From: Serinicoccus sediminis | GTDB taxonomy: Bacteria > Actinomycetota > Actinomycetes > Actinomycetales > Dermatophilaceae | Direction: 5' to 3' | NCBI RefSeq assembly: GCF_004153545.1 | Contig: NZ_SDVA01000016.1 | Span: forward strand, 1 to 62,752 | DNA: 62,752 nucleotides | Shown: one piece after another, positions 19,567-34,411 of the stretch | Position numbering within the stretch: position 1 is the stretch's first letter | Layout: each line of letters starts with the position of its first letter | The notes under the pieces: model-generated | Told to the model about the DNA's origin: nothing | Database searches by the model: none | The model's input: only the letters and a program-made list of their open reading frames with translations | Position numbers and translations under genes: made by a program

Positions 19567-20492
19567 CGCCGGCTCCACCTCTTCCTCCTGGGCCGCTCAC
19601 GGCGCTGCGGGGTGTCGTCGTCGGGGCCGTCCTGCCCGGCCGGCGTCCCGGGGTCCGCGGTCTGCGCGTCCTCGGGTATGCCGTCCGCCGGCTCCTGCTG
19701 GTCGCCCACCGGCGGCGGGGCGGGGACCAGGTCGGGGCCGAGCACCGCGACGAGCCGCTCGACGAGGGAGCGGCCCGAGCGCACCAGCATGGTGCGCTCG
19801 GGACGCGACACCGGGTCGCCGTGGAACATCCGCTCCGGGCGCGGGTCGAGGGCGACCTGCCCCAGGTCGAGCACGTCCGGGACGTCCGCCCGCACCGTGG
19901 CGATGGCCGAGGTGGCCTCGTCCTGCCGGTGCACGCCGGACAGGGCGACCAGCCCGATCCGCGGGGCGTCGGCGCCGAGGGCGGCGAAGGTCTGCGTCAG
20001 CACGGTCAGCCGCTGGCGCAGGTGCATGACGCTGGCCGGCTCGGCCCGCACGACGCCGACCACGAGGTCGCTGCGCTGGACCAGCGAGAGCTGGCCGGAG
20101 CGCGCGGCGAGCTGACCGGCGTCGACGACGACGTCGGTGCCCGGCACCTCGCGGAAGGCGCGGGCCAGCGTCGGCCACAACGCGGCCGAGGCCTCGGCCT
20201 GCTCCGAGGTCTCCAGGCCCACGAGGACCTGCTGGCCACCCGCGGCGACCTGCGAGTGGTCCATGACGACGCCCGAGGAGAGCCCGTGCCGGGCGAGCGG
20301 CAGGAGGGTGAGCAGCCCGGGGTGCTGGGTGAGCGGCATACCCGAGTCCGCGGGCAGCCGCATGAGCAGGTCCCCGCCGTTGCCGTCGGCGTCGACGAGC
20401 AGCGTCGGGCGCGGCCAGAGCGCGGCCACCAGCATGGCGGTGCTCGTCACCCCGGGGGCACCCTTGGCGCTGAAGAAGGAGATGAGGGCCAT
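19563..20492 (-). CDS. TadZ/CpaE-like ParA-type protein with degenerate P-loop
   Basis: A 309-residue MinD/ParA-like protein in the position of tadZ/cpaE, which localises the Tad machine. The N-terminal FFSAKGAPGVTSTA aligns with the deviant Walker A (KGGxGKT): the first Lys (K10) remains but the usual GK(T/S) is replaced by G-V-T, so nucleotide hydrolysis is doubtful, as in other atypical TadZ proteins. A DADGNGGDL motif (switch-like) and VVVDAGQL follow. The last 50 residues are Pro/Asp/Arg-rich and disordered. ATG 20492 lies 8 nt after the CpaB stop. Confidence 0.82.
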   Translation of the reverse strand: MALISFFSAKGAPGVTSTAMLVAALWPRPTLLVDADGNGGDLLMRLPADSGMPLTQHPGLLTLLPLARHGLSSGVVMDHSQVAAGGQQVLVGLETSEQAEASAALWPTLARAFREVPGTDVVVDAGQLAARSGQLSLVQRSDLVVGVVRAEPASVMHLRQRLTVLTQTFAALGADAPRIGLVALSGVHRQDEATSAIATVRADVPDVLDLGQVALDPRPERMFHGDPVSRPERTMLVRSGRSLVERLVAVLGPDLVPAPPPVGDQQEPADGIPEDAQTADPGTPAGQDGPDDDTPQRRERPRRKRWSRR

Positions 20493-20499
20493 CGTGCGC

Positions 20500-21177
20500 T
20501 CAGTCCGTGCGCCAGTCGACCACCGGCGCGGTGTCGCCCGGCAGCAGCGACAGCGCCACGGTGCCGGTCGCGCTGGCCGCGACGACCGCCGGCGCGGCGT
20601 CCTCGGGCAGCAGCAGCGTGACGTGGATGGTGTCGCTGGTGTCGACGACGGGTGCGACGGCGACGACCTTGGCGGCCTCGACGAGCTGCTGGGCGTCCTC
20701 GACGGAGGCCACCGCGGACTCGGGGGCGGTCGCGAAGACGCGGACGATGTCGCCGGCCTCCATCGCGTCCGCGGGCCGGCCGGGAGACGCCACGACCACC
20801 CCGACCTGCTGCACGCCGGGCTCGGCCAGCTCCGAGGGGGTGAACATCTGGCCGGAGACGAGGCTGCCCTGCGGGATGGTGCTCACCGCCTGCGAGCCGA
20901 CGAACTGCGGGAGCGACGCGGCGCTCACCACCTGGGCGCCGTCCTCGAAGGCGATCTCGGCGACGGTGAAGTCCTCCTCGGTCACCTCGGCCCCCTGCTG
21001 GATGGTCTGGGCCGCGACCAGGACCTGCACGCGGTCGCCGGTGCGGTAGACGAGGAGCGCGCTGCCCAGGGCCCCGACCAGGACGAGCAGCAGCGCGAGC
21101 AGCGCGAGGGCGGGCCGCTTGTCCCGGCTGCGCGCGGGCAGACGTGACGCGGTCGCGCCAGAGGTGGCGGTGGTCAT
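20500..21177 (-). CDS. SAF-domain Tad pilus protein CpaB/RcpC-like
   Basis: A 225-residue membrane-anchored protein: one N-terminal helix (about 26-46, LALLALLLVLVGALGSALL), then a SAF domain (VQVLVAAQTIQQGAEVTEEDF, about 52-115) and a C-terminal RcpC/CpaB beta domain (GDIVRVFATAP). In Tad systems CpaB/RcpC acts in the periplasmic or wall-facing part of the apparatus. It is first in the Tad gene order, starting at ATG 21177 with GGGAGGGG 13 nt upstream, and therefore near the operon promoter. Confidence 0.85.
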   Translation of the reverse strand: MTTATSGATASRLPARSRDKRPALALLALLLVLVGALGSALLVYRTGDRVQVLVAAQTIQQGAEVTEEDFTVAEIAFEDGAQVVSAASLPQFVGSQAVSTIPQGSLVSGQMFTPSELAEPGVQQVGVVVASPGRPADAMEAGDIVRVFATAPESAVASVEDAQQLVEAAKVVAVAPVVDTSDTIHVTLLLPEDAAPAVVAASATGTVALSLLPGDTAPVVDWRTD

Positions 21178-21323
21178 ACGGTGTCGTCCCCTCCCGGCCC
21201 AGCCGGAGCATCGTGGCGATGGTGCGGCGATCACCCCTGTGCGGTGCTCAGCCGCGCTCACTCTATCCCTGGCCAGGGCCTTCCCCTAGCGACGCGGGGC
21301 GTCCACGGTGACATAGTGAGGGG

Positions 21324-21656
21324 ATGAGCGACATCCCCAGCATCGCCGTGACCGACCTCCCGGACGACGCGGTCGTCGTGGACGTCCGTGAGCCCGAGGA
21401 GTGGGCGGCCGGGCACGCACCCGGCGCCGTCCACCTCCCCCTGGGCGACCTCCCCGCCCGCATCGACGAGCTGCCGGAGACGGACGCGTCGTTGCCCGTC
21501 GTCTGCCGCAGCGGCGGTCGGTCCGGTCGGGCCGTGGAGTGGCTGGTCCAGCAGGGTTTCGACGTCGTCAACGTCGAGGGCGGGATGCAGGCCTGGAACC
21601 GGGCCGGCAAGAGCATGGTCGGCGGGCCGGACGGCCAGGAGCCGACGGTCGCCTGA
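21324..21656 (+). CDS. Rhodanese-like domain protein
   Basis: A 110-residue single-domain rhodanese. The active-site loop is CRSGGRSGRA with Cys61 carrying the persulfide; DVREPEEWAAGHAPGAVHLPLG is the conserved first half. It probably shuttles sulfane sulfur or detoxifies in the cytoplasm; no neighbouring sulfur gene refines this. ATG 21324 has GAGGGG directly upstream. The gene is divergent from the Tad operon with a 146-bp intergenic region. Confidence 0.92.
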   Translation: MSDIPSIAVTDLPDDAVVVDVREPEEWAAGHAPGAVHLPLGDLPARIDELPETDASLPVVCRSGGRSGRAVEWLVQQGFDVVNVEGGMQAWNRAGKSMVGGPDGQEPTVA

Positions 21657-21735
21657 GCCCTCTGACGCTCTCTCGGCATGTCTTGTCCTGAGTCAAGAGT
21701 CACGGATACTCTCCTCGCGAAGGTCGGGCAGCGCG

Positions 21736-22560
21736 ATGGGTGAGGCGCATCCCGGCTCGCTGCGGGTGGGGGTGCGCGTGGTCGTGCGGCACCTCATCGA
21801 GGGCGGCGAGCGGGCGACCGACACCGTCGGCGAGCTCCTCACCTCGACGCCGGACGAGCTGGTCGTCCGCGGGCGGCACGGCGACGTGCGGATCCTGCCG
21901 GCCGACGTCGTCGCCGCCAAGCCGGTGCCCCAGCGCCCCTGGCGGGTCGCCGCGTTCCTCCGACGCGCCGAGGTGGCCGTGCTCGACCTCGACGGAGTGG
22001 TGCGGGAGTTCGACGTCGGGGGTGCCCGCACCCGCGTGGAGCGCGAGCTGGGCCTCGGGCCCTCGGGGCTCATGGGGATCGCCTCCGAGCTGCCCGAGGC
22101 ACAGGCGATGGTGCGGGGCAGGAGCACGTACGCCGCGTGGGTCGCGGCCCTGCGCACCCGCCTCCTCGACCTGGGCCACCCGCCGCCGCTCGTCGACCTC
22201 GCGATCGAGCGCTGGCACGCCGACCGCGGCACGCCGGTCCGGTGCACCGTCGACCTGGTGGACGAGCTCACCGCCGCGGGGACGCCCACCTTCGTCTTCA
22301 CCAACGGCACCGACCAGGTCCCGGCCGAGCTCGGGCAGATCGGCCTCGGGCACCTCGTGCCGCTGCTGCTCAACACCCACGACCTGGGCGTCGCCAAGCC
22401 CGAGCCCGAGGCGTATGCCGCGGCGCACGCGGAGATCGAGCGGCGCCTCGGCCGCCCGGTGGGGCGGGCGGAGGTCGCCTTCACCGACGACCGCGCCGAC
22501 CACGTGGACGCGGCCCGTGAGTTCGGCTGGCGCGGCCAGCTGTTCACCCTGCCCCGCTGA
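21736..22560 (+). CDS. HAD-superfamily hydrolase with N-terminal SH3-like domain
   Basis: A 274-residue protein. The C-terminal 195 residues are a HAD hydrolase: motif I DLDGVV (D84, D86), motif II VFTNGT, motif III lysine in GVAKPEPEAY and motif IV FTDDRADH, so it should be an active phosphatase or dehalogenase-like enzyme of subfamily IA. The first 65 residues (RVVVRHLIEGGERATDTVGELL and GDVRILPADVVAAKPVP) look like the small SH3-like barrel that precedes GNAT acetyltransferases of the Rv0428c type. Finding it on a HAD enzyme is uncommon. ATG 21736 is chosen because the frame upstream is antisense-like. Confidence 0.82.
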   Translation: MGEAHPGSLRVGVRVVVRHLIEGGERATDTVGELLTSTPDELVVRGRHGDVRILPADVVAAKPVPQRPWRVAAFLRRAEVAVLDLDGVVREFDVGGARTRVERELGLGPSGLMGIASELPEAQAMVRGRSTYAAWVAALRTRLLDLGHPPPLVDLAIERWHADRGTPVRCTVDLVDELTAAGTPTFVFTNGTDQVPAELGQIGLGHLVPLLLNTHDLGVAKPEPEAYAAAHAEIERRLGRPVGRAEVAFTDDRADHVDAAREFGWRGQLFTLPR

Positions 22561-22628
22561 CCCCTCCCCACGACGGCACGTCCGGTGCGCCTCGCCTCGG
22601 CGCGGCCTGATCCGTGTCGGGTGGTGGT

Positions 22629-22692
22629 GCGCGACTGCAGCGGAGGTGTCGCCCGGCAGGGCGACCCCACGACATACCCGGTGCAGTCGCGC
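22629..22692. terminator. Branched hairpin between convergent genes
   Basis: An outer 11-bp stem (22629-22639 with 22682-22692) encloses a second hairpin (22645-22654 with 22659-22668, 9 of 10 paired, 4-nt loop). It lies between the HAD stop (22560) and the Fpg stop (22711), suiting a bidirectional terminator. Confidence 0.6.
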
Positions 22693-22710
22693 CCTTCGGG
22701 ACCGGAGACG

Positions 22711-23571
22711 TCAGCGCAGGAGGCGGGACATGCGACGGTCGGCGAGCGGCTTGCCGCCGGTCTGGCAGGTGGGGCAGTACTGCAGGGAGGAGTCGGCGAA
22801 GGAGACCTCCCGGACGGTGTCCCCGCACACCGGGCACGCCTCCCCGGCGCGGCCGTGGACGTTCATCCCCGCCCGCTTGGCGTCCTTGAGGGCGGTCGCC
22901 GGCTTGCCCTCGGCCGCCATCACCGCGGCCTGGAGGGTCGTGCGCAGCGCCTGGTAGAGGGTGCTGACCTGCTCGGGGGTGAGGCCGGCCGCCAGGGCGA
23001 AGGGGGAGAGCCGGGCCGCGTGCAGGATCTCGTCGGAGTAGGCGTTGCCCACCCCGGCGATGATGGACTGGTCCCGCAGCACACCCTTGACCTGGGTCCG
23101 CCGCCCCTGCAGCAGCGCCGCCAACGCCTCCTCGTCGAAGTCGTCGGCCAGGGGGTCCGGGCCCAGCGAGGCCACCCCGGGCACCTTGGCCGGATCGGTG
23201 ACGACGTACGCCGCCAGGCCCTTCTTGGTCCCGGCCTCGGTGAGGTCGAAGCCGGCCCCGTCGTCGAGCCGCACCCGCAGCGCGATCGGGCTGCGCCCGG
23301 GCCTGACCTGGGTGCGCGGGACCTCGTCGTACCAGCGCAGCCACCCCGCCCGGGCCAGGTGGAAGACCAGGTGGGTCCCGTCGACGTCGAGGTCGACGAA
23401 CTTGCCGTGGCGCCGGACGGCGTCGACCGGCGCCCCGACCAGCGCACCCGGCGGCGGGTCGAAGGTCTTGAGCACCGCGATGGAGCCGAGCTCCACGTCG
23501 GTGACCACCCGGCCGGTGACGCGCTCGGACAGGAAGTCCGTCAGCGCCTGCACCTCGGGCAGCTCGGGCAT
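22711..23571 (-). CDS. Formamidopyrimidine-DNA glycosylase family protein (Fpg/MutM)
   Basis: A 286-residue base-excision repair glycosylase/AP lyase. It begins MPELPEVQ with catalytic P2 and E3 and has K57 (RHGKFVD), the helix-two-turns-helix (GVGNAYSDEILHAARLSP) and a C-terminal zinc finger with C246, C249, C266 and C269. All catalytic features are present, so it should remove oxidised purines. ATG 23571 shares a nucleotide with the stop of the upstream phosphatase gene. A second family member at 60065 lacks the catalytic proline, making this one the likely functional enzyme of the window. Confidence 0.92.
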   Translation of the reverse strand: MPELPEVQALTDFLSERVTGRVVTDVELGSIAVLKTFDPPPGALVGAPVDAVRRHGKFVDLDVDGTHLVFHLARAGWLRWYDEVPRTQVRPGRSPIALRVRLDDGAGFDLTEAGTKKGLAAYVVTDPAKVPGVASLGPDPLADDFDEEALAALLQGRRTQVKGVLRDQSIIAGVGNAYSDEILHAARLSPFALAAGLTPEQVSTLYQALRTTLQAAVMAAEGKPATALKDAKRAGMNVHGRAGEACPVCGDTVREVSFADSSLQYCPTCQTGGKPLADRRMSRLLR

Positions 23572-24635
23572 CAGCCCTGCTCCCCCGACCGCACCCGGGC
23601 GCGCGCCCCGACCAGCAGCTGGTGCAGGCCGAACCCGTTGGACGCCTTGAGCATCGGCACCTGGACCCGCTTGCCGAACAGCTCGTCGGTGGCGACTGGG
23701 AGACCGCTGGAGAGCACCTGCTCGGCCGGGGTCAGCTCGCGCAGGCAGATCGCCTCGACCGCCTCCGGGTGCTCCTGGGCGAACTCGCCGTAGATCACCG
23801 GGTCGTGCTGGCCGTCGTCGCCCACGAGGATCCACCGCATCCCGGGGAAGTCCTCGCGCAGCCGCCGCAGCTCGGCCTCCTTGTGCTCCTGGCCGGACCG
23901 GAACCACCCGGTGTTGGTCGGGCCCCAGTCGGTGAGCAGCATCGGCCCCACCGGGAAGTCGTGGCGCCGTAGGAAGCGGGTGAGGGCAGGCGCGGTGTTC
24001 CAGGCCCCGGTGGAGAGGTAGAACACCGGCATCCTGCGGTCCTCGGAGAGCAGGGCGCGGTACATCGAGCTCATGCCCGGCACCGCCTGGCGCACCTGCT
24101 CGGATCGGACGAAGGTGTTCCACCCCGCGATGAACATGCGCGGCAGATGCGTCACCATCACCGTGTCGTCGATGTCGCTCACGAGCCCCACCTCCACGGC
24201 CGGGTCAACGACGAGCACCGACACGGTGAGCGAGTCACCGTTGCCGAGGTCGAGGTGGGCCTCCTGCCAGCCCGGCCCCAGGCCGTGCCCGTGCAGCTCG
24301 ACGTCGAGGTAGCCACCGCGGTCGGTGCGCGCCGTGGCCTGCGCCTGCCCGAGCCGGACGTGCACCCTCACCCCCACCGCCGGTGCGGTGAGGAACAGCC
24401 GCCAGCCGCGCTGGGCGATGTCGAGCAGCGAGTCCTGCGCGTGGGTCTGCGCCGTGCGGGACTCGTCCGGCTCGTGCCGGGACAGCAGGACCCTGCTGAA
24501 GACGCGCGCGCGGTCGGGCGTGCCGTATCCGGTGTAGCCGAAGAGCCGCTCGTGCCAGCCGCGCCGGCGCAGACTGGCGCCCAGACGCCGTCGGACCGTG
24601 TCCTCGAGCTGGGCGGCGATGTGGGGACGCGCCAT
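23571..24635 (-). CDS. APP1-like phosphatidate phosphatase (DUF2183)
   Basis: A 354-residue protein with the App1 catalytic domain: DxDDT-type motif VSDIDDTVMVT near 152-160, then FYLSTGAWN and VGDDGQHDPVIY, the HAD-like motifs of the family. The N-terminal 120 residues are a beta-rich accessory domain. Family members dephosphorylate phosphatidic acid in yeast; the bacterial role is less clear and may concern membrane lipids. ATG 24635 is preceded 10 nt upstream by the stop of the interrupted membrane protein, so it may be the last but one gene of the Mau-like operon. Confidence 0.87.
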   Translation of the reverse strand: MARPHIAAQLEDTVRRRLGASLRRRGWHERLFGYTGYGTPDRARVFSRVLLSRHEPDESRTAQTHAQDSLLDIAQRGWRLFLTAPAVGVRVHVRLGQAQATARTDRGGYLDVELHGHGLGPGWQEAHLDLGNGDSLTVSVLVVDPAVEVGLVSDIDDTVMVTHLPRMFIAGWNTFVRSEQVRQAVPGMSSMYRALLSEDRRMPVFYLSTGAWNTAPALTRFLRRHDFPVGPMLLTDWGPTNTGWFRSGQEHKEAELRRLREDFPGMRWILVGDDGQHDPVIYGEFAQEHPEAVEAICLRELTPAEQVLSSGLPVATDELFGKRVQVPMLKASNGFGLHQLLVGARARVRSGEQG

Positions 24636-24645
24636 GCCGACCACC

Positions 24646-25452
24646 CTATCCGCCCAGCCGCGCCCAGGCGGCCGCGAGCAGCAGCACGCCGGCCAGCACG
24701 CTGCCCGCCCGCTCGAGCAGGCGCGAGTGCCCCGCGAGGAAGGCCTGCCACCCGGGCGCCCCGAGGACGATCCACAGCAGCACCGCCCACGACCGGGACA
24801 GTCCGAAGGCGGCCCCCAGGACCACGGCCACCCACCACGGGGGCACGACGAGCAGCACGAAGACGGCGGCCAGGTAGGCCGTGGCGGACGGGACGAGGGT
24901 GCGCCAGCCGCAGCCGTACTCGAGCCCGAACCGCAGACCGCCCCGCGCCATACCGCGGTGGAACACCTCCTGCGGGATGAGCGTCGAGCGTTGCGGCAGG
25001 GGCAGCCGCGCCGAGAGCACGTCGAGCGCGACCAGCGCGGCGACGAGCAGGGCGAGCAGCACGAGCCGCACCTGCGGCGGGACCGGGCTGACCAGCCCCG
25101 CCAGCACACCGAGGGCGGCCCCGGTGGCGGCGCCGCCCAGGGTCGTCCCGGTGGCGAAGGCTCCCCAGAGGGAGAGCTGTCGATGTCGGCCCCGGACCGA
25201 GGCCACCAGCGCCCACGCGCTGTTGACGCCTCAGGTGGAGCCGGACAGCGCCACCCCGGACACGGTGACGGCGAAGAGCGCGGGGACGACCCACAGCGCA
25301 CCGGTGACGGGGAGCAGCACCAGGCAGGCGAGACCGCCCGCGGCGAGCAGGAGCAGCAGCGGCAGCGGGTCGGCGGCCCACCGGCGGCGCAGGGGTATGC
25401 CGGTCGCGGCGTCGGCCACGACCGGCAGGTCCGGGTCCTCTAGACCGCCCAC
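24646..25452 (-). pseudogene. Polytopic membrane protein interrupted by an in-frame TGA (possible nonsense mutation or recoding)
   Basis: The frame opens at GTG 25452, overlapping the end of the Cys/Trp-rich protein gene by 13 nt, and reads 73 codons with two hydrophobic helices to SGST, then TGA (25233-25231). The same frame continues without another stop for 195 codons: GVNSAWALVASVRGRHRQ, then about five helices and the motif LEYGCGWRTLVPSATAY, to TAG at 24646. The downstream part could start at GTG 25206. Codon bias (G/C third positions) is equal on both sides, so one ancestral gene is likely. Explanations are nonsense mutation, sequencing error, split translation or selenocysteine at the TGA; a 9-bp imperfect hairpin follows the TGA. 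Function is unknown; context suggests redox or membrane partnership with MauD/MauE-type proteins. Confidence 0.6.
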
Positions 25453-25949
25453 GGGCAGATCGTCGCGACGCAGGAGCCGGACCCGGAGCAGGTCCAGCCG
25501 TCGGAGCAGCGGTAGGTGCGGCCGTCGCTGAACTTCCAGTGCCAGGAGTCGTAGACGCCACCCCAGCAGTCGTCCGGACGGTGCGTGTAGTACCGGTCGG
25601 CCCCGGGACCGTTCTTGTGCCAGCCCACGACGTTGCCGGCACCGGAGCGGTACTTCCAGCAGCAGGACCCGTCGCGGCACATCGGCGAGGGCCCGCACTG
25701 GATGCCGTTCTCGGTGTGGTCGCGGGCGTAGGTCGCGCACGGCCCGGTCGAGGTGTCGGTGTAGTCCAGGAAGTAGGCGGCCTGCGCCACCTGGCTGCCG
25801 CCCCGGTTGACCAGCGCCAACGACCCGACCCCGACGGCGGTGCCGGCCCCCAGGACCCGGGCCAGGAAGCCGCGCCGGCTCGGCCGCTGCCGCAGCCGGT
25901 CCCGCAGCCGGCCGGTGTCGGCCTCCGGGAGGTCCTCGAAGCGCATCAT
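25440..25949 (-). CDS. Tat-exported Cys/Trp-rich protein (methylamine dehydrogenase light-chain-like candidate)
   Basis: A 169-residue protein with a twin-arginine signal (SRRGFLA, R25-R26, hydrophobic 29-48) and a mature part of about 110 residues with ten cysteines (71, 85, 91, 96, 97, 128, 148, 154, 160, 165) and seven tryptophans (98, 110, 129, 136, 138, 152, 167). Tat export, size, Cys density and neighbouring MauD/MauE-like genes resemble MauA, the tryptophan tryptophylquinone subunit of amine dehydrogenases, whose crosslinked Trps lie among disulfides. Direct sequence similarity is weak (only short motifs such as TYRCSDGW), and no heavy chain or MauG gene is present. It may be a new type of disulfide-knotted, perhaps quinone-modified, exported protein. 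ATG 25949 overlaps the MauD-like stop. Confidence 0.7.
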   Translation of the reverse strand: MMRFEDLPEADTGRLRDRLRQRPSRRGFLARVLGAGTAVGVGSLALVNRGGSQVAQAAYFLDYTDTSTGPCATYARDHTENGIQCGPSPMCRDGSCCWKYRSGAGNVVGWHKNGPGADRYYTHRPDDCWGGVYDSWHWKFSDGRTYRCSDGWTCSGSGSCVATICPWAV

Positions 25950-26542
25950 GACGGGTCGGCCTCCCTGGTCGACGACGACGCCCCGGTCGGGCGCAGCGGC
26001 AGACCGCTCGCGCGCAGCCACCCGCCGAGGTCGGTGTCCTCCTCGGGCAGCAGGGCCGCCCGGAGGGTGCCCGACCCGTCGAGGAGCGCGAGGTAGGGCG
26101 TGGCCGGGACCGCCAGCCGGTCCATGACGGCGCGGCCCCGGTCCAGGCAGCGCAGCCGGGCGGCCCCCTCGGCATCCGCCAGCCCGGGCTCGCACGACCC
26201 GACCGAGACGAGGGTCAGCGCGGTCGAGCCGTCGCGGACCTGGGGGTCGGCGGCGAGCGCGCCCAGGGTGAGGGAGCAGGAGCTGCAGCCGGGTGAGACG
26301 AAGGCCAGGAGGGTCTGCCGCGCCGCCGGGTCGACGAGCTCGGCGGCGAGGTCGTCGGGCAGCCGGAAACCCACCAGCTCCCGCGTGGTCCGCGCGCCGG
26401 TCGTGCCCCCGCGGGGTCCCGGCCCGCCCCCCTCGAGCTGCCGGGTGAGCAGGGTGACCTGCCGCAGCAGGCCCGCGAGGCCGAGGGCCAGCAGGGCGAT
26501 GGCGACGAAGGCGAGCACCAGGGCGGACGCGGTGAAGGTCAT
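25946..26542 (-). CDS. MauD-like membrane-anchored thioredoxin-fold protein
   Basis: A 198-residue protein with one N-terminal helix (about 6-28) and an extracytoplasmic thioredoxin-like domain. The active site is CSSC (C86, C89) in FVSPGCSSC, and the cis-Pro region is VPATPYLALLD. MauD and TlpA-type proteins act as thiol oxidoreductases or isomerases for exported disulfide proteins. It is translationally coupled to the MauE-like gene (ATG 26542 overlaps its stop) and to the Cys-rich protein downstream, the most likely client. Confidence 0.85.
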   Translation of the reverse strand: MTFTASALVLAFVAIALLALGLAGLLRQVTLLTRQLEGGGPGPRGGTTGARTTRELVGFRLPDDLAAELVDPAARQTLLAFVSPGCSSCSLTLGALAADPQVRDGSTALTLVSVGSCEPGLADAEGAARLRCLDRGRAVMDRLAVPATPYLALLDGSGTLRAALLPEEDTDLGGWLRASGLPLRPTGASSSTREADPS

Positions 26543-27111
26543 CGGGCCACCCCGGAGAGCGTGGTGAGCCCGGCGGGGACGGCGCGGGCGGCGGGCAGCG
26601 CCGCGGCGCCGGCGGCGAGCGCCAGCCCGCCGCAGACCGCCACGACGAGCTGCGCCCAGACCGGCGCACCGGGGACCGCTTCCCACGGCCCGGTCGGCAG
26701 GAGCAGCGGCGCGAGGGCGAGGGCACCCAGCAGGCCGGCACGGACGGCGCTCCAGCGGGTGACCGGGGTGGCGCCGAGCCCGCAGCCGCAGGGCACCTCC
26801 TGCCCCGCGGTGACCCGACGCACGACGCGCAGGTAGGCCGCGAAGCCGCCGCAGAGCACGACGGCCCCGAGGGCAGCCGCGCGGGTCGGGCCCCGGTCGA
26901 GCACACCGAGCCCGCCCAGGAGCAGCCCGGCCGCCAGCAGGAGCTCCACCGGGCCGAGCACGGGCACCACCCACCGGTGCCAGCGGCCCGGCAGGACCCG
27001 GTGCGCCCGCAGCGCGGCCCGGGTCGCGGCCGGTGCCCGGGTGTGGGCCAGGCCGGAGACGAGCAGCACGAGGCCGACCCCCCACGCGCCGGCCGCCGCG
27101 AGCACGTTCAC
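26539..27111 (-). CDS. MauE/DoxX-family redox membrane protein
   Basis: A 190-residue, five-helix membrane protein with the MauE signature VPCGCGLG (C108, C110) between helices 3 and 4 and an Arg-rich RVVRRV before it. MauE belongs to the DoxX/VKOR-like group and is thought to exchange electrons with MauD during disulfide formation in the amine dehydrogenase light chain. GTG 27111 overlaps the stop of the preceding gene (GTGA). A MauE-MauD-client series on one strand supports a dedicated oxidative folding line. Confidence 0.87.
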   Translation of the reverse strand: MNVLAAAGAWGVGLVLLVSGLAHTRAPAATRAALRAHRVLPGRWHRWVVPVLGPVELLLAAGLLLGGLGVLDRGPTRAAALGAVVLCGGFAAYLRVVRRVTAGQEVPCGCGLGATPVTRWSAVRAGLLGALALAPLLLPTGPWEAVPGAPVWAQLVVAVCGGLALAAGAAALPAARAVPAGLTTLSGVAR

Positions 27112-27830
27112 CGGACCAGCTCCACGGCGACCTGTGCCATGGAGGTGACGACCGCGTCGAGGACGTCCTCGCTGCCCGGCATGCCGTAGGTCACGAAGTC
27201 GCCGCTCTCGAGCACGGCGTAGGGGTGGCGCTCCTCGCCCGAGGCCCGGGACAGCAGCCCACCGCGCACCGGGGCCCCGGAGGACCTCCCGGGCTGCAGC
27301 TGGCCGGTGCGGGCGCGCCGGATGTCGAGGAGGTAGCCCGGCCGGCCCGTCCCCGGGTCCTCGCTCGGCTCCGCCCCGGCCAGCTCGACCACCTGCGCCA
27401 GGGTCTGCGTGCGGTAGGGCGACCAGCTCGTCCTCCCGGCCGGGGTCAGCACCGGCCCGAGCGGGTCGGCCTGGACGTCCACGTCGGCGAGGTAGCCGGT
27501 CAGCGCCTCGACGTCCATCGTCGGCACGGTCGAGCCGTAGACGTGGTGCCCGCTCACCTCGACCGACCAGCCGAGGCCCTGCTGCGGGTCGCCGCCGAGG
27601 CGGCCGTAGCGCAGCACCCGGCCGGCGCGCAGCGCGACCTCCCGGTCGAGGGCCGTCCCGGTGACCTGGAGGTAGAAGGCCAGATCGGGCTCGGTGCCGG
27701 AGGTGACCTCGAGCTGGCCGGCACCGTCCAGGGCCAGGACGGCCAGGGCGGTGCCCCCTGGCAGGGCGGTGGCGTCCGGGACGTCGACGCGCACGCCGTC
27801 GCCGTTCAGCAGGCGGTGGGTGGTCTGCAC
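27108..27830 (-). CDS. Unknown protein, first gene of the Mau-like operon
   Basis: A 240-residue protein without signal peptide or transmembrane helix. It looks beta-rich in the first half (ALAVLALDGAGQLEVTSG, FYLQVTGTALDREVALRAG, GLGWSVEVSGHHVYGST) with no recognised motif; there are no cysteines, unlike its neighbours. GTG 27830 has GGAGGG with good spacing, and its stop overlaps the MauE-like start, so it is the first gene of the MauE-MauD-Cys/Trp protein series. It is not a beta-propeller heavy chain (too short). It could be a cytoplasmic maturation or scaffold protein for the Tat client, but that is a guess. Confidence 0.65.
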   Translation of the reverse strand: MQTTHRLLNGDGVRVDVPDATALPGGTALAVLALDGAGQLEVTSGTEPDLAFYLQVTGTALDREVALRAGRVLRYGRLGGDPQQGLGWSVEVSGHHVYGSTVPTMDVEALTGYLADVDVQADPLGPVLTPAGRTSWSPYRTQTLAQVVELAGAEPSEDPGTGRPGYLLDIRRARTGQLQPGRSSGAPVRGGLLSRASGEERHPYAVLESGDFVTYGMPGSEDVLDAVVTSMAQVAVELVR

Positions 27831-27840
27831 GGGTCCCTCC

Positions 27841-29364
27841 TCATCCGACCTGCGCGCCGACCTGGTCCATGACCACCGAGCTGAGCGCCCCCTGCCCACC
27901 GAGCAGCACCCCGCGGCGCGCGTCCAGGGCCTGGAGAGCGGTCCGCGCGTCGTCCACCAGCTGGTCCTGACGGGTCAGCACCACCGGGACCCCCTGGCTC
28001 CCCGCCCGGGCGGCACCGACGAGGGCGTCCGGGAAGGAGGTGCCGGTGGCGACGTAGACCCGCGCCGGCTCGGTGTCGAACTGGCGCGCGACGGCCGAGG
28101 CCACGGCATACCGGTTGGTGCCGGTGATGCGGGAGACCGAGCCCGAGGTGTGCCGGCGCAGCTGCCCGAGCACGGTGTCGGAGACGGCGCCCGGACCACC
28201 GACGACGACGATCCGCCCCGGGTCGAGACGGGCGACCTGCTCCTCCACCGCCGGGTGCAGCCCGCCCGGAGGGGTGAGCAGCACCGGGGCGCCCTGGTCG
28301 CCCGCGAGGGCACCGATGGCCAGGGCGTCGGGGAAGTTGGCGCCGCTGGCGACGTAGAGGACCGGGCGTCCCGGGGAGTAGGCCGCGGCCAGCGCCGCCG
28401 AGACGTCGTAGCGGGTGCTGCCGGTCACCCGGCTCGTCGTGCCGGCGTAGGCCCCCGCCTCCCGGGCGACCGTCGAGCTCACCGCCCCGGTCCCGCCGAG
28501 GACCACGAGGCGCTGCGGGGCGAGCCGGTCCAGCTGGGCACGGGTGGCGCCGGGCAGGCTGGTCGAACGGGTGAGCAGGACCGGCGCGTCGCGCTGGGCC
28601 GCCAGGGCCGAGGCACCGACGGCGTCCGGGAAGTTCTCCCCCGTGGCGAGGTAGGCCACCGGCACGCCGGCGGGGTAGGTCGCCGCGACCCGGGCGGCGG
28701 AGGCGTAGCGGTCCGTCCCGGCGAGGCGGGTGACCGGGGCGTCACGGCACGTGTAGAGCTGGACGTTGTCGACGTCCCAGCGGGCGGTGACGCCGCGCCG
28801 GCTGGTGTGCTCGAACCAGGTGCCGAGGTCCCCGCCCTCGTCGTCCGTCGCGGCCGTGACGTCGTAGACCCGGCCGTCCCAGGAGTCCCCGGCGTAGACC
28901 CGCAGGTCGACCGAGTTGACCTGCGCGCGGGTGTAGGCGGAGTTGCCCTGGGTCCCCCGGGTGGACAGGGCGAGCATCGTGCGGCGGTCGACCGACACGG
29001 TCACGTAGGGCAGGAAGAAGTGGTCGCCGGGGTCCGCGGAGGAGACCACCGACCGGGCGGCCGAGCCGTCCCGCGACGACACCAGGCCCCAGCCGTCGTT
29101 GAAGCGCGACTGCGGGACCGCCGAGTCCATGCCGTAGCCACCGACGCTGACCCGGCGCGTCATGCCCTCCGGGCAGGGCGCCTGGCCCAGGCCGGACCAC
29201 TCGACCGCCCCCGGGGTGGCCGCGTCGGTCTCACCCCAGCCCGGGTCCCCCTCGGCCCCGGGGTCGGCGGCGGACGTGGCGGCCAGGCCACCCGCCGTCA
29301 GGACCGCCAGGAGCAGCGCCGAGGCCAGCGTGGCACGTCCGTGACGTCGTCGACGGTGGCTCAT
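27841..29364 (-). CDS. Secreted protein with three CWB2 (cell wall binding 2) repeats
   Basis: A 507-residue exported protein: signal peptide 1-32, an N-terminal beta-rich domain of about 170 residues (RRVSVGGYGMDSAVPQS, YVTVSVDRRTMLALS) that I do not recognise, then three CWB2 repeats from about 215 to the end (RLAGTDRYASAARVA, RVTGSTRYDVSAALA, RITGTNRYAVASAVA), each with the LATGENFPDA and VVLGGTGAVS motifs. CWB2 repeats attach proteins non-covalently to wall polymers. Start ATG 29364 has AAAGGGGAG. It lies 10 nt upstream of the Mau-like operon on the same strand and might share its transcript. Confidence 0.9.
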   Translation of the reverse strand: MSHRRRRHGRATLASALLLAVLTAGGLAATSAADPGAEGDPGWGETDAATPGAVEWSGLGQAPCPEGMTRRVSVGGYGMDSAVPQSRFNDGWGLVSSRDGSAARSVVSSADPGDHFFLPYVTVSVDRRTMLALSTRGTQGNSAYTRAQVNSVDLRVYAGDSWDGRVYDVTAATDDEGGDLGTWFEHTSRRGVTARWDVDNVQLYTCRDAPVTRLAGTDRYASAARVAATYPAGVPVAYLATGENFPDAVGASALAAQRDAPVLLTRSTSLPGATRAQLDRLAPQRLVVLGGTGAVSSTVAREAGAYAGTTSRVTGSTRYDVSAALAAAYSPGRPVLYVASGANFPDALAIGALAGDQGAPVLLTPPGGLHPAVEEQVARLDPGRIVVVGGPGAVSDTVLGQLRRHTSGSVSRITGTNRYAVASAVARQFDTEPARVYVATGTSFPDALVGAARAGSQGVPVVLTRQDQLVDDARTALQALDARRGVLLGGQGALSSVVMDQVGAQVG

Positions 29365-29483
29365 CGCTCCCCTTTCCCGCGGCCCGACCCGCTCACGGTA
29401 TGCCGTGGCGGGCGTCCCGCGCCGTCGCCCCGCCGCGCGGGTCGACGGTCGGTCACGGCCGTCGTGGTCAGCGCCGGCCGCGG

Positions 29484-31352
29484 TCAGCGCCCGGCGTCCT
29501 CGACGGCCGCGTCGTGCGCCTCCTGGGCCCGCTGGCGCTCCTGCTCCGCCTCGCGCTCCTGCTGCTCCTTCTTCTCCCGGGCCGCCTCCTCGCGCGCCCG
29601 CTGGGCCTCCAGCCCCGGAGCCCCGGCGACGCGCCCGGCGTCCACCGCGGCCTCCTCGACCGCCACCCAGGTGGGTCCGTCGACCTCACCGGTCGCCTCG
29701 AGCCCGGCCTCCTGCTGGACCGTCAGGACGGCCTTCGCGGTGAGGGGGCCGAAGCTGCCGTCGGCCTCGACGCCCAGCAGCTCCTGCAGGACCGCGACCG
29801 CACCCCCGGCGTAGGGGCTCTCCTCGCTGCCCTCCAGGGCGGCCCGCGCGGCGAGCTCGCCCTCCGGGTCCGCGCCGATGTCGCGGCTGCCCTCGGCGAG
29901 CTCGACGTCGCGCAGCACCATGGTCGGGTGCGCGGCCCGCTCGAGCTCGAGCCAGGTCAGCGGGGTCACGACGGCGGGCTCGTCCTCGCCCCGTCGGCGC
30001 GCCTGCTCGGCGAGCACCGGGACGGTCTGCTCCCACTCGGACAGGGCCTGCGCCGTCTTCGGCCCGAAGTCGCCGTCCGGCTCGGCGCCCAGCGCCTCCT
30101 GCAGCAGGGTGACCGCAGCACCCTGGTCGCCCTGGGTGAGGGTGGTGCGCTTGTAGGGGGTGAACGGGGAGACCTGCCACTTCTGGGGGGTGACGGCCTG
30201 CGCCGAGGCGGGGATCTCGCCCAGCTCCTGGCCCTGCGCCGCGGCGTAGGTCAGGGCGTCCGCGACCCCGGTGGCCGGCAGCTCGTGCTCGTCCTGCCAC
30301 TCGAGGAGCGCGAGCCGGGTGGGCCCGTCCAGGACGCCGGTGGCCTCGACCCCGAGGACGCCCTGCAGCATCGCGACCCCCTCACCGGCCTCACCGGGGC
30401 GCACCCGGGCGAACCCGGAGGCGGGCGCGGGCACGGCCGGGTCGGCGCACGGCTCGAAGCGCGGGAAGGTGTGCAGCGCGGCGTACTCCCGCGCCACGGC
30501 CTCGCACGGCCCCAGGTCGGGCCGGGTCACGGCCACGCCCGTCCACCACGACGTCCGCATCATCGCGCCGTCCCAGGTGAAGGAGAAGTGCACGTGGTCG
30601 GTGTGCGGGCTCGGGCCGACGTAGTGCCGCCACTCGTTGTCGTCCTTCATGAAGACGAGGCCGTTCCAGATGATGTACTCGATGCCGAAGCGGCGCATCA
30701 TCTCGCCGTCGTCCTCGGTCAGCCAGGCGACCGCGGCGTCCCCGATGCGGCGCTCGTGCGGGTCGGAGGCGTCGATGGCCCAGTCCATGGCCCGGCCGTC
30801 GTGGTGCTGGCTCATGTAGTCGACGCACGGGCGGGCGCCGGACCAGCCCTCACGGCCGTAGTGCTCGGTGATCAGCAGCGCGAAGGCGGTGACGCCGGGC
30901 CGGTCCTCGGGGTCGCACGAGAGCTGGTTCTGGTATGCCGTGTCGGCGTCGACCTCGACCGGCAGGTCCTCGTTCTCCGGGGGCGCAGGGACGGGGTAGG
31001 CCGGGTCCTGCGGCAGCTGGGTGAAGGTCGCCGCCCCGGCGGGCGAGCCGCTGTGCCAGAAGCCTCCGCCACCGGGGGGCGGTGCGACAGGGGCACCGTC
31101 GCCTGCGCCACCGCCCGCGGGGTCCTGCCCGGCGGGCGCGGACGGGCCGGTGCCGTCACCGGCGGGAGCGGGCGCGTCCGTGCCGTCACCGGCGGGGGCG
31201 GGCGCGTCCTGAGCGCCACCGGCCACCGGAGCGGCCGGCGTGGTCTCCTCGTCCGCGAACGCCAGCGACGACGACAGCGCGAGCGCCCCCGTCAACATCG
31301 ACGTCGCGAGCAGGCGAGCCCCGCCCCGACGTCGTCCCCCTGTGCCTGCCAT
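29484..31352 (-). CDS. Secreted M15-like/peptidoglycan-binding protein with coiled-coil tail
   Basis: A 622-residue secreted protein. Signal peptide 1-33; a Pro/Ala/Gly-rich linker with a 10-residue repeat (DAPAPAGDGT); a domain at about 130-290 with HHDGRAMDW (near 180-190) and HTDHVHFSF (near 249-257), as in M15/VanY-like hydrolase folds; three PG_binding_1 repeats at about 300-360, 400-455 and 500-560 (VLQELLGVEADGSFGPLTAKAV); and a charged C-terminal coiled coil (AREEAAREKKEQQEREAEQE). It probably binds or trims wall peptides. The ATG is 31352. A leader hairpin lies about 60-100 nt upstream, and the gene is divergent from the CWB2-nucleotidase gene. Confidence 0.85.
   Translation of the reverse strand: MAGTGGRRRGGARLLATSMLTGALALSSSLAFADEETTPAAPVAGGAQDAPAPAGDGTDAPAPAGDGTGPSAPAGQDPAGGGAGDGAPVAPPPGGGGFWHSGSPAGAATFTQLPQDPAYPVPAPPENEDLPVEVDADTAYQNQLSCDPEDRPGVTAFALLITEHYGREGWSGARPCVDYMSQHHDGRAMDWAIDASDPHERRIGDAAVAWLTEDDGEMMRRFGIEYIIWNGLVFMKDDNEWRHYVGPSPHTDHVHFSFTWDGAMMRTSWWTGVAVTRPDLGPCEAVAREYAALHTFPRFEPCADPAVPAPASGFARVRPGEAGEGVAMLQGVLGVEATGVLDGPTRLALLEWQDEHELPATGVADALTYAAAQGQELGEIPASAQAVTPQKWQVSPFTPYKRTTLTQGDQGAAVTLLQEALGAEPDGDFGPKTAQALSEWEQTVPVLAEQARRRGEDEPAVVTPLTWLELERAAHPTMVLRDVELAEGSRDIGADPEGELAARAALEGSEESPYAGGAVAVLQELLGVEADGSFGPLTAKAVLTVQQEAGLEATGEVDGPTWVAVEEAAVDAGRVAGAPGLEAQRAREEAAREKKEQQEREAEQERQRAQEAHDAAVEDAGR
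31151..31210. repeat. 30-bp tandem repeat in the linker of the M15-like protein
   Basis: Two near-identical 30-bp copies (31151-31180 and 31181-31210, two mismatches) encode the repeated Asp-Ala-Pro-Ala-Pro-Ala-Gly-Asp-Gly-Thr linker. Being a multiple of three, expansion or loss would keep the frame. Confidence 0.8.
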
Positions 31353-31708
31353 CGACCGCTGACCCCTGACCTGTCTCGTGGGCGCCGCAGCGACCTGAGG
31401 TGTACATGACGAGCGCCGACCGCCACCACGGTGGGACGGCTCGGCGCTGGTGACAAGACTACGACGCGGGTCCGGACCGCGGAACCCCTCGCCCGACCTT
31501 CTTTACCAACTCGTCATCCGTCGCACCACATACGTCACATGAACCACCTGAACCACGTGCGCCTCACCGCTCATCCCGCCGCGACCACCGGGGTTCACCG
31601 GACCGTGACCTTCTCGTCAGGTGGGGCACGTCCACGATGGGCTACGTTGCTCCCGGCGGGTTCGCCGAGGAACCTGCGACGGACACCCTCATGAGGAGAA
31701 CACCACGC
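31353..31708. promoter_or_regulatory. Gene-free 356-bp divergent region with a leader hairpin
   Basis: No coding region is supported here. It separates two divergent envelope genes. A hairpin with arms 31412-31419 and 31441-31448 (AGCGCCGA/TCGGCGCT) and an inner paired part (31420-31426 with 31431-31439) lies 60-100 nt upstream of the M15-like start. Since no gene ends here it may be a regulatory leader rather than a terminator. The stretch 31490-31560 is the most AT-rich part of the window and may hold the promoters, but no hexamer pair is convincing. Confidence 0.4.
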
Positions 31709-34411
31709 ATGTCCCCACGAACCCCCTCCGCACGTCGAGGCCTCGTGGCCGTCGGCGCGGCGGTCGCCCTCGTCGGTGGCGGTGCCGCCGCCGCGACGAG
31801 CGCGCCCAGCCTGCCCACGGCTCCCGAGATCGAGGACCCGACCGAGGTGCACCGCATCGCGGGCACCGACCGCTACGAGACCGCCGCCGAGATCGCCCGG
31901 GCCTTCCCCGCCGAGGCGACGGACACCGTCGTCATCGCGTCCGGGCAGTCCTTCCCGGACGCCCTGAGCGCCCAGATGCCGGCGGGCTCCGCGGGCGCGG
32001 CGCCCGGGCTGTCCGCCCCGGACAACACCGAGGCCGCCGGTCTGCCGGTGCCGATGCTGCTCACCAAGCAGGACGCGCTGCCCAGCGCCACCGCCGAGGC
32101 GCTCACCGACCTGGCCCCGAGCCAGATCCTCGTCGTGGGCGGCCCCGGGGCCATCTCCGGCACGGTCGAGACCCAGCTGCAGGGCTTCGGGGCCGAGGTG
32201 GTGCGGGTCGCGGGTGACGACCGGTACGAGACCTCCGCCGCGATCTCCGCGCTCTTCCCGACCGGCCTCCCGGTGCTCTACCTGGCGACCGGCACCGACT
32301 TCCCGGACGCCCTGACCGGTGGTGCCCGGGCGGGCCGCGAGGGCGCGCCCCTGCTGCTCACCGACCCGGACGAGCTGCGCCCCAGCACCGCCGAGGTCAT
32401 CGCCGCGCTGCAGCCGCAGTCGGTCGTCGTCCTCGGGGGGTCCGGTGCCGTCTCCGAGGACGTCGTCGGCGCCGTCACCGAGCTGGTGCCCGACACCACC
32501 CGAGTCTTCGGCACGAACCGCTACGAGACCGCCGCCGCCCTGGCCGAGTCCTACGAGTACGACTCGGTGTCCTACCTCGCGAGCGGCCAGGACTACCCGG
32601 ACGCGCTCGCCGGAGGCTCGCTCGCGGCCTACCACGGCGGACCCCTGCTGCTCAGCCGGGTCGACGGGGTGCCGGAGCCGACGGTCGCCGAGCTCGACCG
32701 GCTCTCGCCGCAGGGACTCGTGCTGTTCGGCGGCGACGGGGCCCTCTCGCAGACGAAGGTCGCCGAGCCGCTCGACAGCTGGCTGCCGGTGTGGGTCGAC
32801 GAGCTCGTCGTGCAGATGCTCTCCTTCAACGACTACCACGGCCACATCGAGGAGGAGGACGGCACGCTCGACGAGGAGCAGGACCCGGACCAGAACCTCG
32901 TCGGCGGCGCGGTCAACCTCAGCTCGACGCTGGACGCCCTGCGGACCCGGTCCTTCGAGGACCAGACGCTGACGGTGGCCGCCGGTGACCTCATCGGCGG
33001 GTCGACCTTCGTCTCCGGCCTCTTCCAGGACGAGCCCTCCGTGGAGACCCTCGAGGTCGCGGGCCTGGACATCTCCGGTGTCGGCAACCACGAGTTCGAC
33101 GAGGGCGTCGAGGAGCTGCTGCGCATGCAGGACGGCGGCTGCCACCCCGTGCGCGGGTGCTTCGGCGACGAGCCCTACGACGGCGCGGACTTCCAGTGGC
33201 TCGCCGCCAACGTCGTGGACAAGGAGTCCGGCGAGTCCATCCTGCCGGCCACCGAGGTGCGCACCGTCGACGGCGTGGACGTGGGCTTCATCGGGATGAC
33301 CCTCGAGGAGACCCCGACCCTGGTCAGCCCCGGTGGTGTGGCCAGCGTCGACTTCCTTGACGAGGTCGAGACCGCCAACGCCCAGGCGGCCGAGCTGCGC
33401 GGCCAGGGCGTCGAGTCGATCGTCGTGCTGCTGCACGAGGGCGGCTACCAGACCGGCACGTACGACCAGTGCGAGGGCATCTCCGGTCCGGTCGTCGAGA
33501 TCGCCGAGAACCTCGACCCGGCCATCGACGCCGTCGTCACCGGCCACACCCACCAGCCCTACGTGTGCTCGATCCCGGACCCGGCCGGCGCCGACCGGCT
33601 GGTGACCAGCGCCAACCAGTACGGCCGCGTGGTCACCGAGACCGCGCTGACCATCTCCCGCACCTCCGGTGACGTGACCCGCGACCGGGCCTACGCCGAC
33701 AACCACCTGGTGCTCCAGTCCATCGCGGACGACCCGGAGATGACCACCGTCGTGGACAAGTGGGTGGCCCGGGCCGAGGTGCTCGCCGGCGAGGTCGTCG
33801 GCACCGTCGCCGAGGACATCACCGGTGACGCCGGTGGCGACCGCGGCATCGAGACGCCGATGGCCGACCTGGTCGCCGACTCCATCCTCGCCGGCACCGA
33901 CGGCGCCGACGAGGGCGGTGCGCAGATCTCCTTCATGAACGTCGGCGGGGTGCGCGCGAGCCTGCTCGTCGACCAGATCAGCAACGACGAGGAGGCGGGC
34001 GAGGTCACCTACCAGGAGGCCTACAACGTCATGCCGTTCGGCAACATCCTCGTGTCGATCGACATGACGGGTGAGCAGATCAAGGCCGTCCTGGAGCAGC
34101 AGTACGTGCCGGACCGCGGTCGGCAGTACCTCGCCCTGGGCGTCTCGGAGGGCTTCACCTACACCTGGGACGACAGCCAGCCCGAGGGCAGCAAGGTGAG
34201 CGACATGGCGCTGGACGGCGTCGCGCTCGAGATGGGCGAGACCTACCGGGTCTCCACCCTGAACTTCCTGCAGCAGGGCGGTGACAGCTTCACCGCCTTC
34301 ACCGAGGGCACCAACCTGGTTGGTGGCCCGGAGGACCTGGCCAACCTGGTCGACTACCTCCAGGACAACCCCGGCCTCACCGCCCCGGAGAGCCGCGTCG
34401 ACGGTCTGTGA
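31709..34411 (+). CDS. Cell-wall-bound 5'-nucleotidase/UshA-like protein with N-terminal CWB2 repeats
   Basis: A 900-residue secreted enzyme. Signal peptide 1-32; three CWB2 repeats at about 47-355 (RIAGTDRYETAAEIA, RVAGDDRYETSAAIS, RVFGTNRYETAAALA); a metallophosphoesterase domain from about 368 with D375/H377 (SFNDYHGH), D427 (GDLIG), N460-H461 (GNHEFD) and GHTHQPY near 613; and the 5'-nucleotidase C-terminal domain from about 700 (GVRASLLVDQIS, NVMPFGNILVSIDMTG). It should hydrolyse external nucleotides or related phosphoesters while attached to the wall, for phosphate and nucleoside salvage. ATG 31709 is preferred (GAGGAGA 10 nt upstream); ATG 31691 overlaps this site. Confidence 0.92.
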   Translation: MSPRTPSARRGLVAVGAAVALVGGGAAAATSAPSLPTAPEIEDPTEVHRIAGTDRYETAAEIARAFPAEATDTVVIASGQSFPDALSAQMPAGSAGAAPGLSAPDNTEAAGLPVPMLLTKQDALPSATAEALTDLAPSQILVVGGPGAISGTVETQLQGFGAEVVRVAGDDRYETSAAISALFPTGLPVLYLATGTDFPDALTGGARAGREGAPLLLTDPDELRPSTAEVIAALQPQSVVVLGGSGAVSEDVVGAVTELVPDTTRVFGTNRYETAAALAESYEYDSVSYLASGQDYPDALAGGSLAAYHGGPLLLSRVDGVPEPTVAELDRLSPQGLVLFGGDGALSQTKVAEPLDSWLPVWVDELVVQMLSFNDYHGHIEEEDGTLDEEQDPDQNLVGGAVNLSSTLDALRTRSFEDQTLTVAAGDLIGGSTFVSGLFQDEPSVETLEVAGLDISGVGNHEFDEGVEELLRMQDGGCHPVRGCFGDEPYDGADFQWLAANVVDKESGESILPATEVRTVDGVDVGFIGMTLEETPTLVSPGGVASVDFLDEVETANAQAAELRGQGVESIVVLLHEGGYQTGTYDQCEGISGPVVEIAENLDPAIDAVVTGHTHQPYVCSIPDPAGADRLVTSANQYGRVVTETALTISRTSGDVTRDRAYADNHLVLQSIADDPEMTTVVDKWVARAEVLAGEVVGTVAEDITGDAGGDRGIETPMADLVADSILAGTDGADEGGAQISFMNVGGVRASLLVDQISNDEEAGEVTYQEAYNVMPFGNILVSIDMTGEQIKAVLEQQYVPDRGRQYLALGVSEGFTYTWDDSQPEGSKVSDMALDGVALEMGETYRVSTLNFLQQGGDSFTAFTEGTNLVGGPEDLANLVDYLQDNPGLTAPESRVDGL

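Follow-up and report, generated by a model that had tools for sequence, protein, structure and literature searches.

Within a 62,752-nucleotide stretch of Serinicoccus sediminis DNA (contig NZ_SDVA01000016.1, positions 1 to 62,752; hereinafter the window), five genes lie head to tail on the minus strand and code, in order, for a protein of no assigned family (hereinafter the first gene), a MauE membrane protein, a MauD-like thioredoxin-fold protein, a Cys- and Trp-rich protein with a twin-arginine translocation (Tat) signal (hereinafter the cargo) and a further membrane protein. Based on sequence comparisons, we propose that the gene 3′ of the cargo almost certainly codes for a single protein in which a UGA is read as selenocysteine (Sec or U). 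This proposal derives from an invariant in-frame TGA, a covarying hairpin downstream of it, the co-occurrence of the gene with tRNA-Sec, the presence of the Sec machinery in the host, and the alternation of Sec with Cys at the same site. There is strong computational evidence for a selenoprotein family here, one that matched nothing in Pfam, NCBIfam or the table of a 2026 selenoprotein inventory (PMC13188914). The original prediction for this DNA had outlined an operon at 25440..27830; while its genes are real, it was one gene short, having missed the selenoprotein candidate, whose features are as follows:

24646..25452, minus strand: selenoprotein candidate, 268 residues, hydrophobic and all-helical, translated through one in-frame TGA
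25231..25233, minus strand: in-frame TGA, residue 74, motif SGST-U-GVNS, with TGA in 73/73 loci
25207..25222, minus strand: first hairpin 3′ of the TGA, weakly supported (columns 12–27 of alignment A6)
25188..25204, minus strand: selenocysteine insertion sequence (SECIS)-like hairpin with an apical GGU(C) (A6 columns 30–46)

The in-frame UGA and its SECIS-like hairpin

The two membrane-protein frames 3′ of the cargo gene share one reading frame and are split by a single TGA. When the species collection was scanned with alignment A1, 72 cargo loci were recovered, and with iterated profiles both the cargo and the membrane protein are found in 73/73 cases once the window is added. The TGA codon is present in all 73 (of 74 rows, one from L064 was dropped for the broken reading frame of that locus) and is flanked on both sides by conserved coding sequence, namely SGS[TV] before it and a conserved x-x-N-S after it. 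Across 65 distinct sequences the codon at +3 is invariably AAC, while that at +4 is AGC in 56, TCG in 7 and TCA in 2, thereby specifying Ser throughout. This switch between AGC and TCG/TCA with the Ser kept points to selection on the protein, i.e., to a translated sequence. A structure model of the protein, computed with Sec as Cys, is confident (predicted local distance difference test, pLDDT, 87.9; predicted template modeling score, pTM, 0.88), and in it residue 74 opens a helix (73–84) after a break from the preceding one (51–70).

If the TGA were instead an ordinary stop, the locus would code for two separate membrane proteins, one small and one larger, produced via termination and re-initiation. 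In favor of this, the window has a GTG 9 codons past the TGA, and 49/65 sequences offer an ATG, GTG or TTG within 20 codons. However, the remaining 16/65 have none of these in that interval, the protein sequence between the TGA and any start is conserved, and neither the TGA nor the frame changes in 73/73 loci. Moreover, there are homologues with Cys in place of the TGA, the TGA form co-occurs with tRNA-Sec, and the joined protein yields one confident structure model. Hence, we consider this alternative extremely unlikely.

For the RNA-level comparison, 87 TGA stretches were extracted (74 locus rows and 13 of the 20 matches from genomes of the class), 71 of which were distinct; alignment A6 comprises 65 of these, with the extra row of L064 as well as L087, L164, L165, L166 and L168 left out, and L161 never having been extracted. 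The SECIS-like hairpin lies 27–43 bases 3′ of the TGA and bears a GGU in its loop. In A6 its cells are paired in 99.7% of cases, with changes on both sides in 5/6 pairs, and RNAalifold recovered it unprompted as 7 pairs, 6 of them with compensatory changes. The first hairpin, which is paired in 80.3% of cells with changes on both sides in 1/6 pairs, is absent from the RNAalifold consensus. For the two-hairpin structure as a whole, the observed value was reached in 0/500 shuffles on four measures and in 1/500 on a fifth, and sliding the structure lowers the pairing from 90% to 29–54%. A stem-loop just 3′ of the UGA is expected of bacterial selenoproteins, and with its GGU loop the SECIS-like hairpin resembles the bacterial SECIS recognized by SelB.

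The host genome codes for a tRNA-Sec with the anticodon tca, and beside it for SelD (362.5 bits), SelB (255.5 bits) and SelA (386.8 bits), all over their cut-offs. The membrane-protein profile matches 17/394 genomes of the class, with 19 of its 20 matches carrying the TGA and one (G109) a Cys. All 16 genomes with the TGA form have a tRNA-Sec as compared to a background of 122/394 (hypergeometric 3.5e-9, kinship ignored), and no tRNA-Sec was found in G109 with its Cys form. Within the genus, tRNA-Sec is present in 21/22 cargo-positive versus 4/9 cargo-negative genomes (Fisher 0.004). Six of the 16 class genomes (G369, G307, G183, G275, G285 and G043) have their tRNA-Sec gene within 8 kb of the selenoprotein gene, and a genus genome, G414, likewise has it within 8 kb of the operon. 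As side observations, G183 has two diverged selenoprotein genes (locus L172), one on each strand and about 4 kb from each other, with a tRNA-Sec about 3.4 kb off, while G275, G307, G257 and others possess a further tRNA-Sec-like gene scoring above the Rfam cut-off.

A profile built from the three most distant matches uncovered a wider family, with 57 matches in 56/336 sampled genomes of the phylum. Exactly one in-frame TGA is seen in 48 of these, five have Cys at the site (L209 and L228–L231) and four begin past it. Of these 48 TGA-bearing matches, 27 were fetched, and 26 of the 27 show the motif [WLF][SGF]P-U-G-x-S-[ML] at the TGA, the exception being L223. Overall, Cys occupies the UGA position in 6 genes from 6 genomes (L163/L178, L209 and L228–L231), and G515 has a Cys copy alongside one with a single TGA. 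By eye, many members of this SP-U-G family seem to use a shifted hairpin register.

The alternation with Cys bears on the further possibility that the UGA is decoded by a near-cognate tRNA rather than as Sec. Such read-through would likewise keep the frame and could use the hairpin. However, the stop-free homologues covering the site show Cys, and neither Trp nor Arg, at this position, and the full Sec machinery of the host along with the 16/16 co-occurrence with tRNA-Sec also speak against it, making this the least probable of the readings considered.

Four points weigh against our overall reading of the locus. The shuffle control for the two-hairpin structure ignores kinship. The distant SP-U-G family pairs at the same hairpin columns in only 107/168 cells. 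As many as 106 of the 122 class genomes with tRNA-Sec are without the TGA form, so that tRNA-Sec is not by itself predictive of the operon. Finally, in G416, a metagenome-assembled genome in 570 contigs, the cargo is present and no tRNA-Sec was found.

At the family level, the selenoprotein has no Pfam or NCBIfam match at E-values up to 1, and no such family appears by name or motif among the 119 prokaryotic selenoprotein families or subfamilies in the inventory's table (PMC13188914). Passages of two other papers (PMC12013277 and PMC9312934) were searched by term, and among the titles listed by literature searches, with subscription papers and preprints outside their scope, none described such a family.

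The Tat-signal cargo and its operon

The other four genes of the operon are as follows:

27108..27830, minus strand: first gene, 240 amino acids, no family assignment, signal peptide not seen by eye
26539..27111, minus strand: MauE (PF07291), DoxX-like membrane protein bearing PCGC
25946..26542, minus strand: MauD-like protein of the thioredoxin fold, N-terminus hydrophobic, bearing CSSC and, as a conserved cis-Pro-like motif, ATP
25440..25949, minus strand: cargo, Tat-signal protein (TIGR01409) of 169 amino acids, with 10 Cys and 7 Trp in its mature part

The coordinates of these first four genes give overlaps of 4 bases between neighbors, in keeping with the earlier claim that the MauE-like, MauD-like and cargo genes are translationally coupled. 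With the GTG start that we selected, the selenoprotein candidate shares 13 bases with the end of the cargo gene. The cargo is present in 22/31 genomes of the genus and in 5/394 of the class, including that of the host; its closest named matches are from Serinicoccus at 89–96% identity. The cargo loci span Serinicoccus, Ornithinimicrobium, Janibacter, Propioniciclava, Actinomadura, Thermomonospora, Actinoallomurus, Streptomyces, Pilimelia and others, with the gene order preserved across them. Because the cargo recurs in this manner in the genus and in the 72 loci with its order intact, the grouping of the genes is not a chance one. A second cargo match in G241 (L006) was rejected, because the frame opposite it looks to be that of a cysteine synthase.

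The description of the cargo as a Tat-signal protein with ten Cys and seven Trp was confirmed by the residue count (Cys 71, 85, 91, 96, 97, 128, 148, 154, 160 and 165; Trp 98, 110, 129, 136, 138, 152 and 167) and by the Tat-signal model TIGR01409 (17.4 bits versus a cut-off of 16.7), beyond which neither Pfam nor NCBIfam detects any family. In an alignment of 73 trimmed cargo cores from the 72 loci and the window (A2), six Cys and two Trp (W136 and W138, forming a W-x-W) are invariant, as are His, Arg and Asp residues. The number of Cys per core is always even (73/73), at 10 or 12, and certain pairs are gained or lost together: C91 with C96 in 58/73 and C154 with C160 in 18/73, while four further Cys columns occur together in 55/73. 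Since such even counts and jointly gained or lost pairs fit disulfides, all the Cys of the cargo are probably held in disulfide bonds, which supports the earlier suggestion of a new exported, disulfide-knotted protein served by a maturation line of its own.

The other half of that suggestion, namely that the cargo might be related to MauA and its tryptophan tryptophylquinone (TTQ), was not upheld. By this account, the cargo would be a MauA-like light chain whose Trp are converted to a TTQ-type quinone, with the heavy chain missing or distant. The adjoining MauE and MauD-like genes, the Tat export of a Cys- and Trp-rich protein similar in size to the MauA light chain, and the two Trp invariant in 73/73 cores are all in its favor. 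However, the profile check with the methylamine dehydrogenase light-chain family (Me-amine-dh_L, PF02975) gave no match to the cargo over the cut-off, and none over the cut-off is seen in the 394 class genomes, where weaker matches occur in 7 (E-values up to 0.01) and none at all in the host. Comparison of the cargo profile with that of MauA gave a probability of 0.1 (hhalign), and the MauA chain is not among the 5 matches at E-values up to 10 from a PDB search with the cargo profile. The only two invariant Trp, W136 and W138, are two residues apart, unlike the spacing of about 50 residues expected of the TTQ tryptophans, which are residues 57 and 108 of MauA. A structure prediction for the cargo (pLDDT 61.4, pTM 0.46) is too weak to use, and for what little weight it carries, Foldseek gave no match at E < 0.001 and MauA is absent among the 50 listed of its 119 matches. 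With the Pfam, NCBIfam, PDB sequence and profile–profile comparisons all negative, MauA homology of the cargo was rejected, and we judge the quinone-bearing light chain very unlikely. A quinone formed from the W-x-W is conceivable. No heavy chain, MauG or electron acceptor was recognized by eye in the translations of 20000–33000, with no profile search aimed at them.

The cargo domain from Streptomyces is fused to two peptidoglycan-binding repeats (PG_binding_1) in the one protein scanned (L091); by eye, a similar tail is seen in the Streptomyces loci L077, L078, L096, L101, L106, L109 and L112. Several loci of the wider selenoprotein family have a different Tat-signal Cys-rich protein, and five such proteins were scanned, with LGFP repeats over the cut-off in two and under it in one. 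Thus, the selenoprotein accompanies Cys-rich exports of more than one family. In four SP-U-G loci (L222, L225, L226 and L227) we observed yet another twin-arginine-signal protein with 10 Cys beside the selenoprotein; that of L225, when scanned, matched nothing in Pfam and gave just a weak hit to MauA in NCBIfam, located in its signal region.

Of the neighboring genes, MauE is a clear member of PF07291 (E-value 2.4e-18; 67.1 bits versus a cut-off of 27). A strict two-sequence profile finds a related gene in 68/73 loci, with the C-x-C motif in 63 of the 68; five loci are without it, and four of these (L054, L095, L098 and L099) are truncated at contig ends. The MauD-like protein scores 17.3 bits with the MauD model TIGR02661 against a cut-off of 188.6; hence, it is named MauD-like and not MauD, such that of the MauE/MauD-like pair predicted earlier, MauE stands as named and its partner as a thioredoxin with a CxxC. 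Its residues C86, C89 and P149 are invariant in 23 aligned members. Iterated profiles find the MauD-like protein in 71/73 loci and stretches related to the first gene, some of them short, in 67/73, both being upper figures because some of the matches are short pieces or lie in other frames. The first gene (alignment A3, 42 sequences) has no Pfam or NCBIfam match. Two further MauE-family genes are found in the host genome on contigs C6 and C11 (L041 and L042), and in the 14 kb around each, none of the profiles for this system gave a match at an E-value of 0.01, with the strict MauE profile missing those MauE genes as well. Upstream of the operon, we noted by eye proteins with repeats of the cell-wall-binding type in the window (27841–29364 and 31637–34411) and, in the single genome of Pilimelia terevasa (L115, 5332–6411), a look-alike of the pyrroloquinoline quinone-type β-propellers with a Tat signal.

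A putative selenium-dependent redox-maturation line

Taken together, we favor an interpretation of the locus as a dedicated redox-maturation operon around a Sec-containing membrane protein, which we regard as probable. In known mau systems, MauD and MauE serve the disulfides of the light chain. By the mechanism we propose, the cargo would be exported by the Tat pathway, and the membrane-anchored MauD-like thioredoxin would use its CxxC to form or rearrange the five disulfides of the cargo outside the membrane. MauE, with its PCGC motif, and the multi-helix selenoprotein would then recycle the MauD-like protein by passing electrons through the membrane, with the Sec at the helix start serving as a fast redox residue. 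The finished cargo might act in the cell envelope, a site suggested by the peptidoglycan-binding repeats of its relatives and the LGFP repeats of the cargos from other families. As a joint scheme predicted from sequence features, these steps seem to us likely on balance, slightly less so than the operon's general role.

The likeness to mau operons lies in a PF07291 gene that neighbors those for a thioredoxin-like protein and for a Cys/Trp-rich protein with a Tat signal; in contrast to them, the MauD match here is far under the NCBIfam cut-off, the cargo does not belong to PF02975, and a selenoprotein and a new first gene are added. With CcdA/DsbD, the selenoprotein shares a multi-helix membrane architecture next to a thioredoxin-like partner, and the WSPC motif of its Cys-form relatives is reminiscent of the SPC motif of CcdA.

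Certain observations count against the above mechanism. Although Foldseek ranks CcdA first for the selenoprotein model, the match is not significant (E-value 1.3, probability 0.21), and a profile comparison with the CcdA-like protein of the host found nothing (hhalign probability 0.3). The selenoprotein alignment (A7) lacks another invariant Cys as a partner for the Sec, differing from CcdA/DsbD in this respect too. The fifth MauE-less locus, that of Pilimelia (L115), is not cut by a contig end. Neither hhalign nor Pfam supports kinship with CcdA by sequence, and the resemblance serves as a lead only.

Among the selenoproteins tabulated in the inventory, the membrane proteins YeeE/YedE, the SO_0444 transporter, SaoP and a putative mercuric transport protein resemble this one in having one UGA-encoded Sec, and differ in their families and Sec motifs going by the table listing (PMC13188914). 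To judge by its name, TsoB, a rhodanese/DsbD fusion-like selenoprotein in the same table, has Sec in a DsbD-related protein; however, it is listed as NF045694, while the window protein matches no NCBIfam model.

According to the inventory, many of the known selenoproteins show homology to thiol oxidoreductases or bear redox motifs (PMC13188914). This would also suit a genuine Sec system with another job, such as a reductive line that maintains an exported thiol or metal-binding protein in its active state, or a defense against envelope oxidants with the cargo as the enzyme, whose active site could be formed by its invariant His, Arg and Asp. Given that the even Cys counts and co-gained Cys pairs of the cargo fit stable disulfides, and that MauD and MauE act on light-chain disulfides in known mau systems, we view such roles as rather unlikely, though well ahead of the readings set aside above.

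If the selenoprotein and its disulfide-maturation role are as we propose, the locus would add a selenoprotein family that standard gene callers would split at the UGA, and would represent a redox line for Tat-exported proteins that depends on Sec and is dedicated to its substrate. Many actinomycetes would gain a concrete reason for keeping their costly Sec machinery. Which protein needs selenium in these bacteria, and how exported Tat substrates acquire their disulfides, become testable questions. More tentatively, the SGSxU-NS and SP-U-G-x-S forms could together constitute a large, unrecognized actinomycetotal superfamily, a selenium-dependent membrane machine that oxidizes or rearranges disulfides, and perhaps crosslinks the W-x-W, in several unrelated Tat-exported Cys-rich envelope families, possibly being a main use of selenium in the phylum.

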